Shown here piece after piece: positions 13,246 through 18,193 of a DNA stretch of 37,519 nt. Position numbers and translations under genes: made by a program. The stretch's first letter is position 1, and every line of letters begins with the position of its first letter. This stretch comes from Balneolaceae bacterium (lineage in GTDB: Bacteria > Bacteroidota > Rhodothermia > Balneolales > Balneolaceae). The notes beneath the pieces were generated by a model. That model saw nothing but the letters and a program-made list of their open reading frames with translations. It had not been told where the DNA came from and searched no databases. The stretch spans positions 1 through 37,519 of the forward strand of contig RECI01000192.1 of NCBI GenBank assembly GCA_007694095.1. The letters run 5' to 3'.

Positions 13246-13329
13246 TACCGATGAATAAATAAGACGTTGCTGTTTTCATCAGTTCTCAAACTGTATGTTC
13301 ACTGATGCCACCAAAAAGAGGTGATATTC

Positions 13330-14058
13330 ATGCTGAAATCAAAGAATTCAATCAAAAAATACCTGAAAATTATTGCCCTGTTGGCAGTATTTATACTTGT
13401 AATTCTTCATCAAAACAGTAACGCCCAGCAAATGTTTGTGGATGATGCTGCTGTAACCACAACCAACTCTTTTCAGTTAGAAACATGGTACGGTTCCAGG
13501 GAATCCTGGTTTTTGCCAGCTGTAAGCCCGGTACTAGGTCTTGAAATTGGTACAGGAATCGGTTTTGATTCACGTGAAGGCCTTGAACCCACAAACTGGA
13601 TTTTTGAGATGAAATTTGTGCCCGGCGACCTTGAAAAAAATGGCTGGGCCCTTGGCGTAGCAGCCGGCCTTTTGTACGATTTTGATGGCAATTTTGAAGA
13701 ATTTTTTTTGATGGTCCCTTTCAGCCGTATGATTTTTGGAGACACATCGCAACTTCATTTCAACCTGGGTTTAGACGCCATTTACGAAAATAACAACGAA
13801 ATGGAGACTGATCCCGACTGGTCGTATGATGTGATTAAAGGAATCCGCGGAGATTTTGGTTTAACGGACCGCTTTACCATTCTTTCGGAAATTGCGGCAG
13901 CAAATTTTGACAATATTTTTTTCCAGGGCGGCCTCAGGATATCCGTACTTCCTGGCCTGCTCGAAATGGACATTACCTATGGGGAAGGTTTTCGCAGGAT
14001 GGAAACCGCACCCGGTTTTAATATTGGCTTAACATTTACACCAGATTCACTCTGGTGA
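13330..14058 (+). CDS. Predicted outer-membrane protein of unknown function, upstream of mgtE
   Basis: I choose the ATG at 13330 because AAGAGGTGA at 13316-13324 is a good ribosome-binding site for it. A GTG at 13321 would start inside that site. The 242-residue product begins with a basic, hydrophobic signal peptide ending SNAQQ. The mature part (about 210 residues) shows barrel-like alternation (FQLETWYGSRESWFL, VLGLEIGTGIGFD, LHFNLGLDAIY, FNIGLTFTPDSLW) and ends in an aromatic residue, typical of outer-membrane barrels. It is 150 bp upstream of mgtE on the same strand and probably co-transcribed, since no mgtE promoter is obvious between them. A CACCAGA/TCTGGTG hairpin overlaps its stop codon (14039-14057). 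A role in ion passage is a guess from context. Confidence 0.75.
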   Translation: MLKSKNSIKKYLKIIALLAVFILVILHQNSNAQQMFVDDAAVTTTNSFQLETWYGSRESWFLPAVSPVLGLEIGTGIGFDSREGLEPTNWIFEMKFVPGDLEKNGWALGVAAGLLYDFDGNFEEFFLMVPFSRMIFGDTSQLHFNLGLDAIYENNNEMETDPDWSYDVIKGIRGDFGLTDRFTILSEIAAANFDNIFFQGGLRISVLPGLLEMDITYGEGFRRMETAPGFNIGLTFTPDSLW

Positions 14059-14084: not shown

Positions 14085-14165
14085 ATGGACGAACCTCCAA
14101 GTCGAAGCTTTTATCAACAAAAATTTCAATCCTGTACAGGGCAGAAATCAATAATTTTCATCTGA
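14085..14165 (+). CDS. Candidate leader peptide of mgtE (MDEPPSRS..., 26 aa)
   Basis: ATGGACGAACCTCC opens a 26-codon frame (starts MDEPPSRSFYQQ) with its TGA at 14163-14165, 42 bases before the mgtE start. The Asp-Glu-Pro-Pro start recalls the acidic/proline-rich start of enterobacterial MgtL (MEPDPTPLP), where such residues destabilise the translating ribosome at low Mg2+ and so switch expression of the Mg2+ transporter mgtA. The stop lies 12 bases before a hairpin (14177-14206) abutting the mgtE start. The resemblance is seen; the mechanism here is inferred. Confidence 0.45.
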   Translation: MDEPPSRSFYQQKFQSCTGQKSIIFI

Positions 14166-14176
14166 GAAAATGTTGC

Positions 14177-14206
14177 GTTCTGTCATGTACCCAAACTTGA
14201 CAGAAC
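14177..14206 (+). promoter_or_regulatory. Nine-base-pair hairpin abutting the mgtE start codon
   Basis: GTTCTGTCA (14177-14185) is perfectly complementary to TGACAGAAC (14198-14206) with a 12-base loop. The second arm ends one base before the ATG at 14208, so the structure would cover the whole initiation region. No U-tract follows, so it is not a terminator. It fits translational control by the preceding micro-ORF. Confidence 0.55.
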
Positions 14207-14207
14207 T

Positions 14208-15605
14208 ATGACAATACAAAACTACGATATTAATCCATTTCTGCGTGCCCTGAAAGATCAGGACATGGATAAACTAAAATTTCTGATTGCCAATCTGAAT
14301 CCGGCCACCCTGGCCGAATTGCTGGCTGAAATTGATTCAACAGACCACAAAACCATTTTCCTGCTGCTCAATACCGAAGATCAGGCCGACATCATGAAGT
14401 ATCTTGATTTTGATACTCAGATCGGACTTATTCATTCTCTGGATCAGGGAGATATAAAAAATCTTGTTGAAGCGATGCCCCACGACACACGTGTTGACCT
14501 GCTGAACCGGCTGCCTTCAGATGAACGCAAAGATATTCTCCGGCATTTGGCAAAAGTGGAACGAGACGATATTCTCCAGCTCTCCAAATTTGAGGAAGGC
14601 ACCGTTGGGTCTATTATGACCTCCGATTATGCAATCCTTCATCCTGATCAGTCAGCACATCAAGCCATCGAAAAACTCCGTGTAGAAGCACCCGACCACG
14701 AAATGATCTACTACGCGTATGTTGTTGATAAGGAGAGAAAACTGATTGGCACCGTTTCAATGCGGGCACTCATTATTTCTGACCCGAGTACAAAAATCAG
14801 CGAAATTCTTACCTCGGATGTTGAAAAAGTAAACGTAAACGAACCCGAAGAGATAGCATCAAGAAAACTGAAACAGCTCGATCTCCTCGCACTGCCTGTG
14901 GTTGACGATAATGACAGGTTAGTTGGAATGATCACATTCGATGATGCAATGCAGGCAATTGAAGAGGATGTTTCAGACACCATGTATCAAAAAGCAGGTG
15001 TGATGACCGGAACAAGTTCCCGCGATAAAGCCCGTGATGTTCTCTTCAGCAAAAGACTCACTCAGGGAAATATTCTCTATCCGGTGAAGCTCAGAATCAC
15101 ATTCCTGTTCGTAACACTAATCGGTGGCTTTTTGGTTGGCGGTGTCATCGACCGTTTCGAAGAGCTGCTTTCTGCCATTATTGTAGCTGCAGTTTTTATC
15201 CCTGTAATTATGGATATGGGTGGTAATGTGGGTACTCAGTCCACAACAATATTCGCACGCGGGCTGGCACTCGGTCACATCAAGCTTGAGAATATATATA
15301 AGCATATTGGACGTGAAATGGCTATTGGCGCCATGATCGGATTAATTCTCGGTGTGCTTGCAGGAACCGGGGCTTATTTCTGGCAAGGTTTGCCGAACGA
15401 TCTGCCGCAAATCGGCCTGGCCGTTGGCCTGTCCCTTATGATAGTTTTACCCCTGGCAAGTTTCCTCGGCTTTTTTATCCCGTATATGCTTCTCAAGATG
15501 GGCTGGGATCATGCTCCGGGCGCTGACCCGTTTATCACCACAATTAAAGACTTTGTTGGACTTACTCTCTATTTTTCCCTGGTAAGCGTGATGATTGGTA
15601 TATGA
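14208..15605 (+). CDS. mgtE: Magnesium transporter MgtE
   Basis: The 465-residue protein has the complete MgtE architecture. A cytoplasmic MgtE_N superhelical domain covers about 1-130 (repeats such as LLNRLPSDERKDILRHLAKVE). A CBS pair covers about 135-255 (VGSIMTSDYAIL, LIGTVSMRALI, DRLVGMITFDDAMQAIEED). A plug helix is followed by a five-helix membrane domain from about 285 to the end. The conserved pore segment MGGNVGTQSTT is present, and the last helix carries DPFITTIKDFVGLTLYF with the family's conserved aspartates. It is a Mg2+-gated, Mg2+-selective channel of the inner membrane in which the N and CBS domains sense intracellular Mg2+. It is preceded by a candidate leader peptide and hairpin and followed by a strong hairpin at 15615-15659. 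Confidence 0.97.
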   Translation: MTIQNYDINPFLRALKDQDMDKLKFLIANLNPATLAELLAEIDSTDHKTIFLLLNTEDQADIMKYLDFDTQIGLIHSLDQGDIKNLVEAMPHDTRVDLLNRLPSDERKDILRHLAKVERDDILQLSKFEEGTVGSIMTSDYAILHPDQSAHQAIEKLRVEAPDHEMIYYAYVVDKERKLIGTVSMRALIISDPSTKISEILTSDVEKVNVNEPEEIASRKLKQLDLLALPVVDDNDRLVGMITFDDAMQAIEEDVSDTMYQKAGVMTGTSSRDKARDVLFSKRLTQGNILYPVKLRITFLFVTLIGGFLVGGVIDRFEELLSAIIVAAVFIPVIMDMGGNVGTQSTTIFARGLALGHIKLENIYKHIGREMAIGAMIGLILGVLAGTGAYFWQGLPNDLPQIGLAVGLSLMIVLPLASFLGFFIPYMLLKMGWDHAPGADPFITTIKDFVGLTLYFSLVSVMIGI

Positions 15606-17401: not shown

Positions 17402-17788
17402 ATGACGGAACTTCTTGCAGTTGCAATCGGTGGGGCTATTGGTGCGGTACTTCGTTACCTGTCAGGCATCATACTGATTCGGATCATGAGCCGTTCCGAT
17501 GTTATCAACGGAACAGTTTTTTCTAACCTTCTAGGGTGCTTTTTGGCCGGTATGGCATTGGCCTGGATTGCCAATACAGCCATCCTTTCACCGGAAATTA
17601 CACTATTCCTCACCGTCGGAATTCTCGGGTCTCTTACAACCTTTTCAACTTTTGCACTGGAAACCTATCAGCTGATCGGGAAAGAGACAAAACCACAACT
17701 CGCAGCTTACCTCTCACTCCAGTTAATAGCAGCTTTTCTGTTGACTGCAGCCGGATATTGGCTCATACACACTTTTGGAGGTTTGTGA
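17402..17788 (+). CDS. crcB: Fluoride exporter CrcB/FluC, first subunit
   Basis: The 128-residue protein has four membrane helices and the Fluc signatures: GGAIGAVLRY (10-19), NGTVFSNLLGCF (36-47) with the pore Asn42, and GILGSLTTFSTF, in which Phe81 and Phe84 correspond to the phenylalanine box lining the fluoride pore. Fluc channels are dual-topology dimers that let F- leak out of the cell. The start lies 19 bases after the upstream lipoprotein gene, and the second crcB follows at once. I saw no fluoride (crcB-motif) riboswitch before it. Confidence 0.92.
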   Translation: MTELLAVAIGGAIGAVLRYLSGIILIRIMSRSDVINGTVFSNLLGCFLAGMALAWIANTAILSPEITLFLTVGILGSLTTFSTFALETYQLIGKETKPQLAAYLSLQLIAAFLLTAAGYWLIHTFGGL

Positions 17789-17791
17789 TTT

Positions 17792-18193
17792 ATGAAACAA
17801 AAACCTCATTTAAGTGATATAGCATGGGTTGCTTTTGGCGGCATGATCGGGGCTTGTATGCGGCACTTTACCAACCTTTTTGTCGCAAATATATCAGATT
17901 CACCTTTCCTGATCACCGCAACTGCCATTGAGAATATCCTCGGCTCCTTTTTAATCGGATTGATTTTTACTATCCTGAAGAAACGTGCCGATAAGAGCCC
18001 TCAGATGAGTCTTTTTTTACTAACCGGCATCATAGGCAGTTATACCACATATTCCGGATTTATGATTGAGGCCTTTATAAATACCGGAAACTCCATTTAT
18101 ATCATGCTGATGTATATGTTTACCCAGATACTTTCTGGAATTATTGCCGTTATGGGAGGAATATACCTTGCAAAGAAAATGATGCGTTCATGA
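17792..18193 (+). CDS. crcB: Fluoride exporter CrcB/FluC, second diverged subunit
   Basis: The gene starts three bases after the first crcB stop, with GGAGGT at 17777-17782 as a ribosome-binding site inside the end of crcB1. The 133-residue product has the same four-helix plan: FGGMIGACMRHF, ENILGSF with pore Asn48, and GIIGSYTTYSGF. The phenylalanine box is altered: the first position is Tyr87 and the second Phe90. Two adjacent, diverged copies are the pattern of heterodimeric Fluc channels known from Gram-positive bacteria, where opposite orientations are fixed in the two subunits. No other gene follows closely, so this probably ends the operon. Confidence 0.9.
   Translation: MKQKPHLSDIAWVAFGGMIGACMRHFTNLFVANISDSPFLITATAIENILGSFLIGLIFTILKKRADKSPQMSLFLLTGIIGSYTTYSGFMIEAFINTGNSIYIMLMYMFTQILSGIIAVMGGIYLAKKMMRS

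Follow-up and report, generated by a model that had tools for sequence, protein, structure and literature searches.

A short reading frame that opens with acidic and proline codons and ends just ahead of the gene for a Mg2+ transporter raises the question of whether ribosomes translating the small frame control expression of the large one, and by what means. The arrangement lies in the window, the whole 37,519-nucleotide stretch of Balneolaceae bacterium contig RECI01000192.1, whose source genome (G000) is Balneolaceae-like and 4.56 Mb in size. The answer that we favour, at a confidence somewhat above even, is a cis-acting translational switch by which the stability of ribosomes on the acidic/proline leader would govern mgtE expression.

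The leader ORF and its conservation

The gene at 14208..15605 of the forward strand encodes a Mg2+ channel/transporter of 465 aa, and the Pfam scan, which found MgtE_N, two CBS stretches and MgtE, bore out its initial annotation as mgtE. The leader ORF lies on the same strand at 14085..14165 and comprises 26 codons (MDEPPSRSFYQQKFQSCTGQKSIIFI, beginning MDEPPSRSF) followed by a TGA stop at 14163-14165. Re-translation reproduced exactly the 26-codon frame, the Met-Asp-Glu-Pro-Pro start and the 42 nt to the mgtE ATG at 14208 that had been reported for it. Codons 2-5 (14088..14099, forward strand), encoding Asp-Glu-Pro-Pro, are the proposed ribosome-destabilising stretch; MDEPP has two acidic residues, which places it below strong laboratory destabilisers, and MgtL (Glu2/Asp4) and MgtQ (Asp2/Glu5) likewise have two. 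Dinucleotide shuffling of the intergenic region (4000 shuffles) gave an ATG-initiated ORF with Asp, Glu or Pro at all of residues 2-5 and a length of 8 aa or more only once. The 14-base leader pattern ATGGANGANCCNCC was rejected as remarkable by itself, with 3 matches in the 4.56-Mb genome versus 2 for a reversed control pattern; the motif is notable for its position and conservation, its sequence alone being unremarkable.

Upstream, a conserved gene without a Pfam match (13321..14058, forward strand) ends 26 nt 5′ of the leader ATG and is probably co-transcribed with mgtE. Its C-terminal end, FTPxxLW followed by the stop, precedes mgtE in many relatives, and an FTPxxLW gene also lies directly 5′ of mgtE in other Balneolota, in Bacteroidales L079 and in Gemmatimonadetes L080 (as WTPRPLR), so that this gene and mgtE form a two-gene unit conserved across distant groups. 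Shortly 3′ of the mgtE region are two adjacent crcB-like genes of the fluoride channel family (17402-17788 and 17792-18193), a pair resembling two-subunit Fluc channels. Sigma-70 promoter and terminator scans of the window returned no matches.

Orthologues of the window's MgtE (about 50-80% identity) were present in 17/129 genomes of the order, the window's own counted; these are Balneolaceae metagenome assemblies, for many of which the sample names point to soda lakes. Conservation within this family, f1, was assessed among eight close species, again metagenome assemblies, with MgtE 65-100% identical to that of the window. In the seven further species the ORF starts 126-129 nt before mgtE, compared with 123 in the window, and the leader peptides read MEDPPDCCNKIK, MDEPPSCFYLNK (two species), MEEPHSCSKALN, MEDPPDCCNQIK, MDEPPSSGSIQI and, with ATA instead of ATG, IEEPPDCYCHII. 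The starts across the eight species are thus MDEPP, MEDPP, MEEPH or IEEPP. Loss of the start or of the acidic and proline codons in close relatives had been named at the outset as the finding that would speak against the element; instead, acidic-acidic-Pro was kept in 8/8 species and ATG in 7/8. Synonymous change, which had likewise been sought, was found in codons 2-5, where third positions vary in 4/4, first in 0/4 and second in 1/4 (p = 0.01). The free exchange of Asp and Glu indicates that acidity is conserved rather than the codon. In the species with ATA (L035 about 3873, L034; genome G077), Glu-Glu-Pro-Pro-Asp-Cys is intact and the start-proximal hairpin is lost, which could reflect joint decay, an unusual start, or a sequencing or assembly error. 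The mgtE gene itself is interrupted, through stops or a frameshift, at L009/L031/L045 (G011) and at L123 (G097); the halves in G011 are 65% and 91% identical, suggesting a chimeric assembly or recombination, and the G097 gene has two in-frame TAA codons.

The 3′ part of the leader drifts within f1 in length (19-27 aa), in the position of the stop (-42 to -68) and even in reading frame, which changes between L041 and L045. Pairwise identity along the alignment peaks at 0.86 at the leader start, falls to 0.33-0.58 over the remaining leader and rises again at the hairpin. A drifting 3′ part behind a fixed start is expected if only the N-terminus of the leader matters, and from sequence comparison the pattern fits a leader whose N-terminus would be important and whose remainder would serve merely for ribosome passage. 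It fits less well with the idea that the ORF encodes a small functional trans-acting protein, with MgtE as one conceivable target, in the manner of MgtR and MgtS. Such a protein would account for the conserved start and for the frequent Cys at position 7 or 8, but the variable length and frame of its C-terminal half, the lack of any apparent long hydrophobic segment and the overlap of the ORF with the conserved RNA switch described below make it quite improbable.

Mutually exclusive helices before mgtE

The perfect nine-base-pair hairpin placed by the initial annotation one base before the mgtE ATG (14177-14206) is exact: GTTCTGTCA (14177-14185) and TGACAGAAC (14198-14206) form an inverted repeat that ends one base 5′ of the start codon. 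Among the 4000 shuffled intergenic sequences, a 9-bp hairpin whose end lay no more than 3 nt from the start occurred 3 times. In the fold, the stem is lengthened by pairing of UGUUG (14171-14175) with UGACA (14209-14213), and the mgtE start codon is thereby partly buried. The suggested conservation of the hairpin was found, with some compensatory change; what had been overlooked was this extension over the start codon, an additional segment A and, with it, the competing helix, A:B, that allows a mechanism to be proposed. Segment A (GUACAGGGCAGAA, 14134..14146, forward strand) lies inside the leader ORF and forms 12/13 pairs with B in the window, a pairing that shows covariation; across the loci compared, A falls either within the leader ORF or at its end. 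Segment B (GUUCUGUCAUGUAC, 14177..14190, forward strand) can pair either with A, through 14178-14190, or with C, through 14177-14185, as indicated by sequence, covariation and folds. Segment C (UGACAGAAC, 14198..14206, forward strand) pairs with B in the start-proximal hairpin, by which the mgtE start is hidden, according to covariation and folds. Between A and B, the sequence contains an inner hairpin, AUUUUC/GAAAAU (14154..14171, forward strand), with the leader stop codon in its loop; its stem covaries in five relatives, and the window's version is at a shifted position.

Sharing B, the A:B and B:C helices are mutually exclusive, one of them hiding the mgtE start, and both show compensatory change. 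For A:B with the inner stem in seven species, 89.5% of cells were paired versus 34-48% when slid, with 8 doubly changed pairs and a covariation of 0.429 versus a shuffled mean of 0.235 and at most 0.106 for slid pairings. For B:C, 85.7% of cells were paired versus 31-44% slid, with 3 doubly changed pairs; these pair counts were taken on alignment A1, segment A being misplaced in alignment A2. The covariation score of B:C exceeded that of shuffles by no more than a modest margin, as one would expect of a segment B that has to serve two partners. These observations bear on the possibility that the inverted repeat acts as a DNA operator or as a hairpin affecting mRNA stability, the ORF being incidental. 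A perfect 9-bp inverted repeat beside a start could be a repressor site, but an operator would preserve its letters, and here the letters differ among species with pairing kept, and the 5′ arm in addition retains its pairing with A, so we regard this reading as very improbable.

The energies of the two forced states (A:B minus B:C) ranged from -6.3 to +3.4 kcal/mol; in the window the two folds differ by 0.6 kcal/mol, and the minimum-energy fold has B:C, not A:B. In folds with A hidden, B:C formed in the f1 species except L035. With A free, A:B won in L041, L045 and L052, and minimum-energy folds of the longer segment had B:C in the window, L036, L037 and L038. Removal of A in the A:B-preferring species lowered the unpaired fraction of the start region from 0.39 to 0.15, from 0.52 to 0.14 and from 0.64 to 0.30. 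A covariance model built on f1 gave a single confident match (E below 1e-12) in each of 7/129 genomes, always before this mgtE, and those seven are the genus genomes having the leader. An extra match in G092 (L189, E 7.7e-4) adjoins no recognised transporter and is probably due to chance.

Covariation of both helices and the near-equal energies of the two states would also be expected if the RNA itself sensed Mg2+ or temperature, with the ORF merely keeping ribosomes off or on region A and the peptide irrelevant. Against such a plain RNA switch stand the conservation of the acidic/proline start at the codon level, with Asp/Glu exchange at third positions, and the lack of a match to any Rfam family, the M-box included; it is unlikely, though it deserves consideration. 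In the window, neither an M-box nor another Rfam RNA was found at the gathering threshold, and matches at E up to 10 were only noise. The M-box (RF00380) was also absent upstream of mgtE in 15 Balneolota loci, in a scan that detects it in Bacillota, Spirochaetota and Nitriliruptoria.

A proposed ribosome-dependent switch and its known counterparts

Comparison of the related loci establishes the conservation of an ORF beginning M-(D/E)-(D/E)-P, selection on codon type, both exclusive helices and their position. From these we infer translation of the leader, ribosome drop-off, Mg2+ as the signal and the direction of control. With ample Mg2+, ribosomes would finish the leader and cover or unfold A, leaving B to pair with C, so that the mgtE start would be hidden and mgtE OFF. 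At low Mg2+, ribosomes would drop off at the acidic/proline codons near the leader start and A would be left free; A:B would then form, C would be released and mgtE would be translated (ON). A ribosome at the leader stop codon of the window would reach no further into A than its 3′ edge, and occlusion would thus depend on passage of ribosomes or unfolding of A:B, not on a parked ribosome. No intrinsic terminator was found in the window, and the position of B:C, abutting the mgtE start codon, points to control at the translational level. The window's genome encodes ribosomal protein L31; in Salmonella this protein counteracts drop-off of the kind proposed.

The chemistry has precedent in E. coli, where nascent chains that are acidic near their start make the ribosome unstable, an effect that is weaker at high Mg2+ (PMC9718836). 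In the literature found, Mg2+ sensing through acidic nascent chains is described for the leaders of enterobacterial Mg2+ transporters. The leader of the window has the main structural parts of one of them, mgtQ of the Salmonella mgtC-mgtB intergenic region (PMC8092293), in which Asp2 and Glu5 bring about a change between stem-loops that conceal the ribosome-binding site of mgtB. Both place a short ORF with early acidic codons (in mgtQ, Asp2 and Glu5 are needed) in front of a Mg2+ transporter gene and have two alternative stem-loops of which one hides the start region of the transporter, and mgtQ acts at translation (PMC8092293), the level proposed for the switch in the window. They differ in that mgtQ precedes the P-type ATPase MgtB, in another phylum, and consists of 8 codons behind a strong Shine-Dalgarno site, whereas the leader here has 26 codons and precedes MgtE. 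In addition, mgtQ uses four RNA segments, stems 1:2 and 3:4 being the alternative to 2:3; only three segments are clear in the window, and a single fold of the window's leader revealed no partner, equivalent to stem 1:2, that would capture A when the leader is untranslated. With three segments only, an untranslated leader should leave mgtE ON in the window, in contrast to OFF for the four-segment mgtQ.

MgtL of E. coli and Salmonella (MEPDPTPLP...), which senses Mg2+ for mgtA through EPDP (PMC11282234), also places acidic and proline residues directly after the start codon and before a Mg2+ transporter, and its RNA conformations depend on completion of the leader, as is predicted here. MgtL differs in acting through Rho-dependent transcription termination, whereas the pairing partner in the window is the mgtE start itself, and by inspection the two leaders show no evident sequence homology beyond composition. 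A third point of comparison is offered by mycobacteria, where Mg2+-transport genes with an M-box (ykoK) also have a uORF, uORF2/Rv1805A (PMC12810186); these systems differ in that neither the window nor the Balneolota relatives examined have an M-box. Rv1805A of M. tuberculosis is described as specific to mycobacteria and as having no assigned role, and ribosome destabilisation is not proposed there (PMC12810186). In M. abscessus, a uORF before mgtE was detected by ribosome profiling (PMC4974804).

Acidic leaders in other Balneolota and other phyla

In other families of the order, which have diverged past alignment, the layout recurs with different leader sequences of the same character: MENSDLNTGLESGPDPEPEP, MESHLCKGSEAPADPDPEP and MDDSSHLCSHS. 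The leaders of L116 (MENSDLNTGLESGPDPEPEPAF...) and L119 (MESHLCKGSEAPADPDPEPYLF...) alternate Asp/Glu with Pro as MgtL does, and competition between the A:B hairpin and pairing that reaches the mgtE start is clear in L119 and weak in L116. In L120-L122 (MDDSSHLCSHS...), a perfect 9-bp hairpin, GGTTTCACC/GGTGAAACC, abuts the ATG, and mutual exclusivity of A:B and B:C is equivocal there. No recognisable acidic leader was present at L115, L117 or L118, and none was recognised at the paralogous mgtE genes of the same Balneolota genomes.

MgtE relatives at about 33-44% identity occur in many phyla, and acidic-start ORFs, which carry strong Shine-Dalgarno sites, precede the related mgtE genes in 21/39 cases (20 different loci) versus 12/227 background ORFs (p = 1.2e-12, only a guide, since related loci are not independent). 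The criterion for a Bacillota leader had been set once the first loci had been looked at. The leaders read MDSDPGSYSR, MDADPDPYRQ and MDPDPGSYRN in Spirochaetaceae, MESDSDVPNWG, MESDNDGPFEG, VANDDDDSVPW, MSDDPGSKQG and MDEPSRRGCHQ in Bacillota, and VPDDGEQPSR in Nitriliruptoria. Those of Phycisphaerales (MTDDPGPSRL) and Hydrogenedentota (MDDPSSSRHK) come from a sister group of the Balneolota clade. In nearly all of the Bacillota, Spirochaetota and Nitriliruptoria loci tested, the leader ORF lies between an M-box and mgtE; the M-box scan was negative for L058 and L108, and L108 has a perfect 11-bp hairpin abutting the mgtE ATG. A second M-box lies just 3′ of mgtE on the same strand in L081 (5342-5510), L047 (5356-5527) and L046 (5347-5449), each probably followed directly by another Mg2+-regulated gene. 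The acidic ORF of about a dozen Bacillota, most of them alkaliphilic, crosses the mgtE start and terminates about 40-75 nt into the gene in another frame, and full translation of such a leader would physically block mgtE initiation. Overlapping acidic ORFs with strong Shine-Dalgarno sites were seen at L046-L054, L059, L060, L062, L069, L070, L081 and L082.

This range of leaders also bears on what is sensed. A leader responding to the supply of proline or prolyl-tRNA, or to polyproline stalling relieved by EF-P, would need no role for acidic residues or Mg2+. The Pro-Pro pair in MDEPP and MEDPP would suit it, as would the response of Salmonella mgtL and mgtP to proline (PMC8092293). Pro-Pro is, however, absent from MEEPH (L036) and MDDSSHLC (L120-122), acidic residues are kept in all, and Bacillota leaders are often acidic without an early Pro; sensing of proline instead of Mg2+ is accordingly unlikely. 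Sensing of Mg2+ through ribosome destabilisation on acidic residues remains the reading that we prefer for the window's leader.

In a tree of 115 MgtE proteins, the leader-bearing rows cluster (19 changes versus a shuffled mean of 32.6, with 0/500 shuffles as low), a count in which leader labels were partly hand-set and which near relatives inflate. A supported clade of 70 rows includes 35/39 leader-bearing rows, and the paralogous MgtE groups of Balneolota include 0. Among 30 mainstream Bacilli mgtE loci, an acidic start was found in 2/6 Shine-Dalgarno-preceded ORFs (L158 and L151, the latter being L046's own gene), a rarity indicating that the leader is a trait of particular MgtE lineages and not universal. 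Wider samples of Spirochaetota and Clostridia, meant to replicate the enrichment, added new loci in numbers too small for a count, L201 (MDSDGS) and L202 (MVPLSTDPDPH), and the Alkalispirochaeta relatives in the wider sample were without the leader. In L201 (G1115), the acidic start (MDSDGSKGNN) has a strong Shine-Dalgarno site and shares the mgtE reading frame; instead of encoding a leader of its own, it could extend the N-terminus of MgtE, with translation also starting at a second, internal site.

The suggestion that the element represents an independent use of this chemistry in Bacteroidota proved too narrow, as several other phyla also have acidic leader ORFs ahead of related mgtE genes. 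From its distribution, the leader may predate its arrival in Balneolota; most simply, it would have travelled with its mgtE, with losses, although mgtE leaders may instead have arisen repeatedly. Judged by conservation, the element in the window would represent MgtL/MgtQ-type logic on an unrelated transporter family in another phylum, and the mgtE leader switch is probably widespread. The fullest form of this proposal, for and against which we see the evidence as evenly balanced, is that acidic/proline mgtE leaders are old, phylum-spanning Mg2+ sensors that act by ribosome destabilisation, usually together with an M-box, in many Bacillota by crossing the mgtE start, and in Balneolota, where the M-box is absent, through a covarying translational RNA switch. 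A search of a library of 5.4 million papers, with a minority of subscription papers and preprints covered, found no paper joining mgtE to ribosome destabilisation. If the proposal is true, the chemistry of acidic leaders is no enterobacterial peculiarity, and the ribosome itself would be a common Mg2+ sensor, alongside or instead of a riboswitch. Where an M-box and a leader occur together, one mRNA would then carry two independent Mg2+ sensors, and this would suggest a role for the uORFs near M-boxes.
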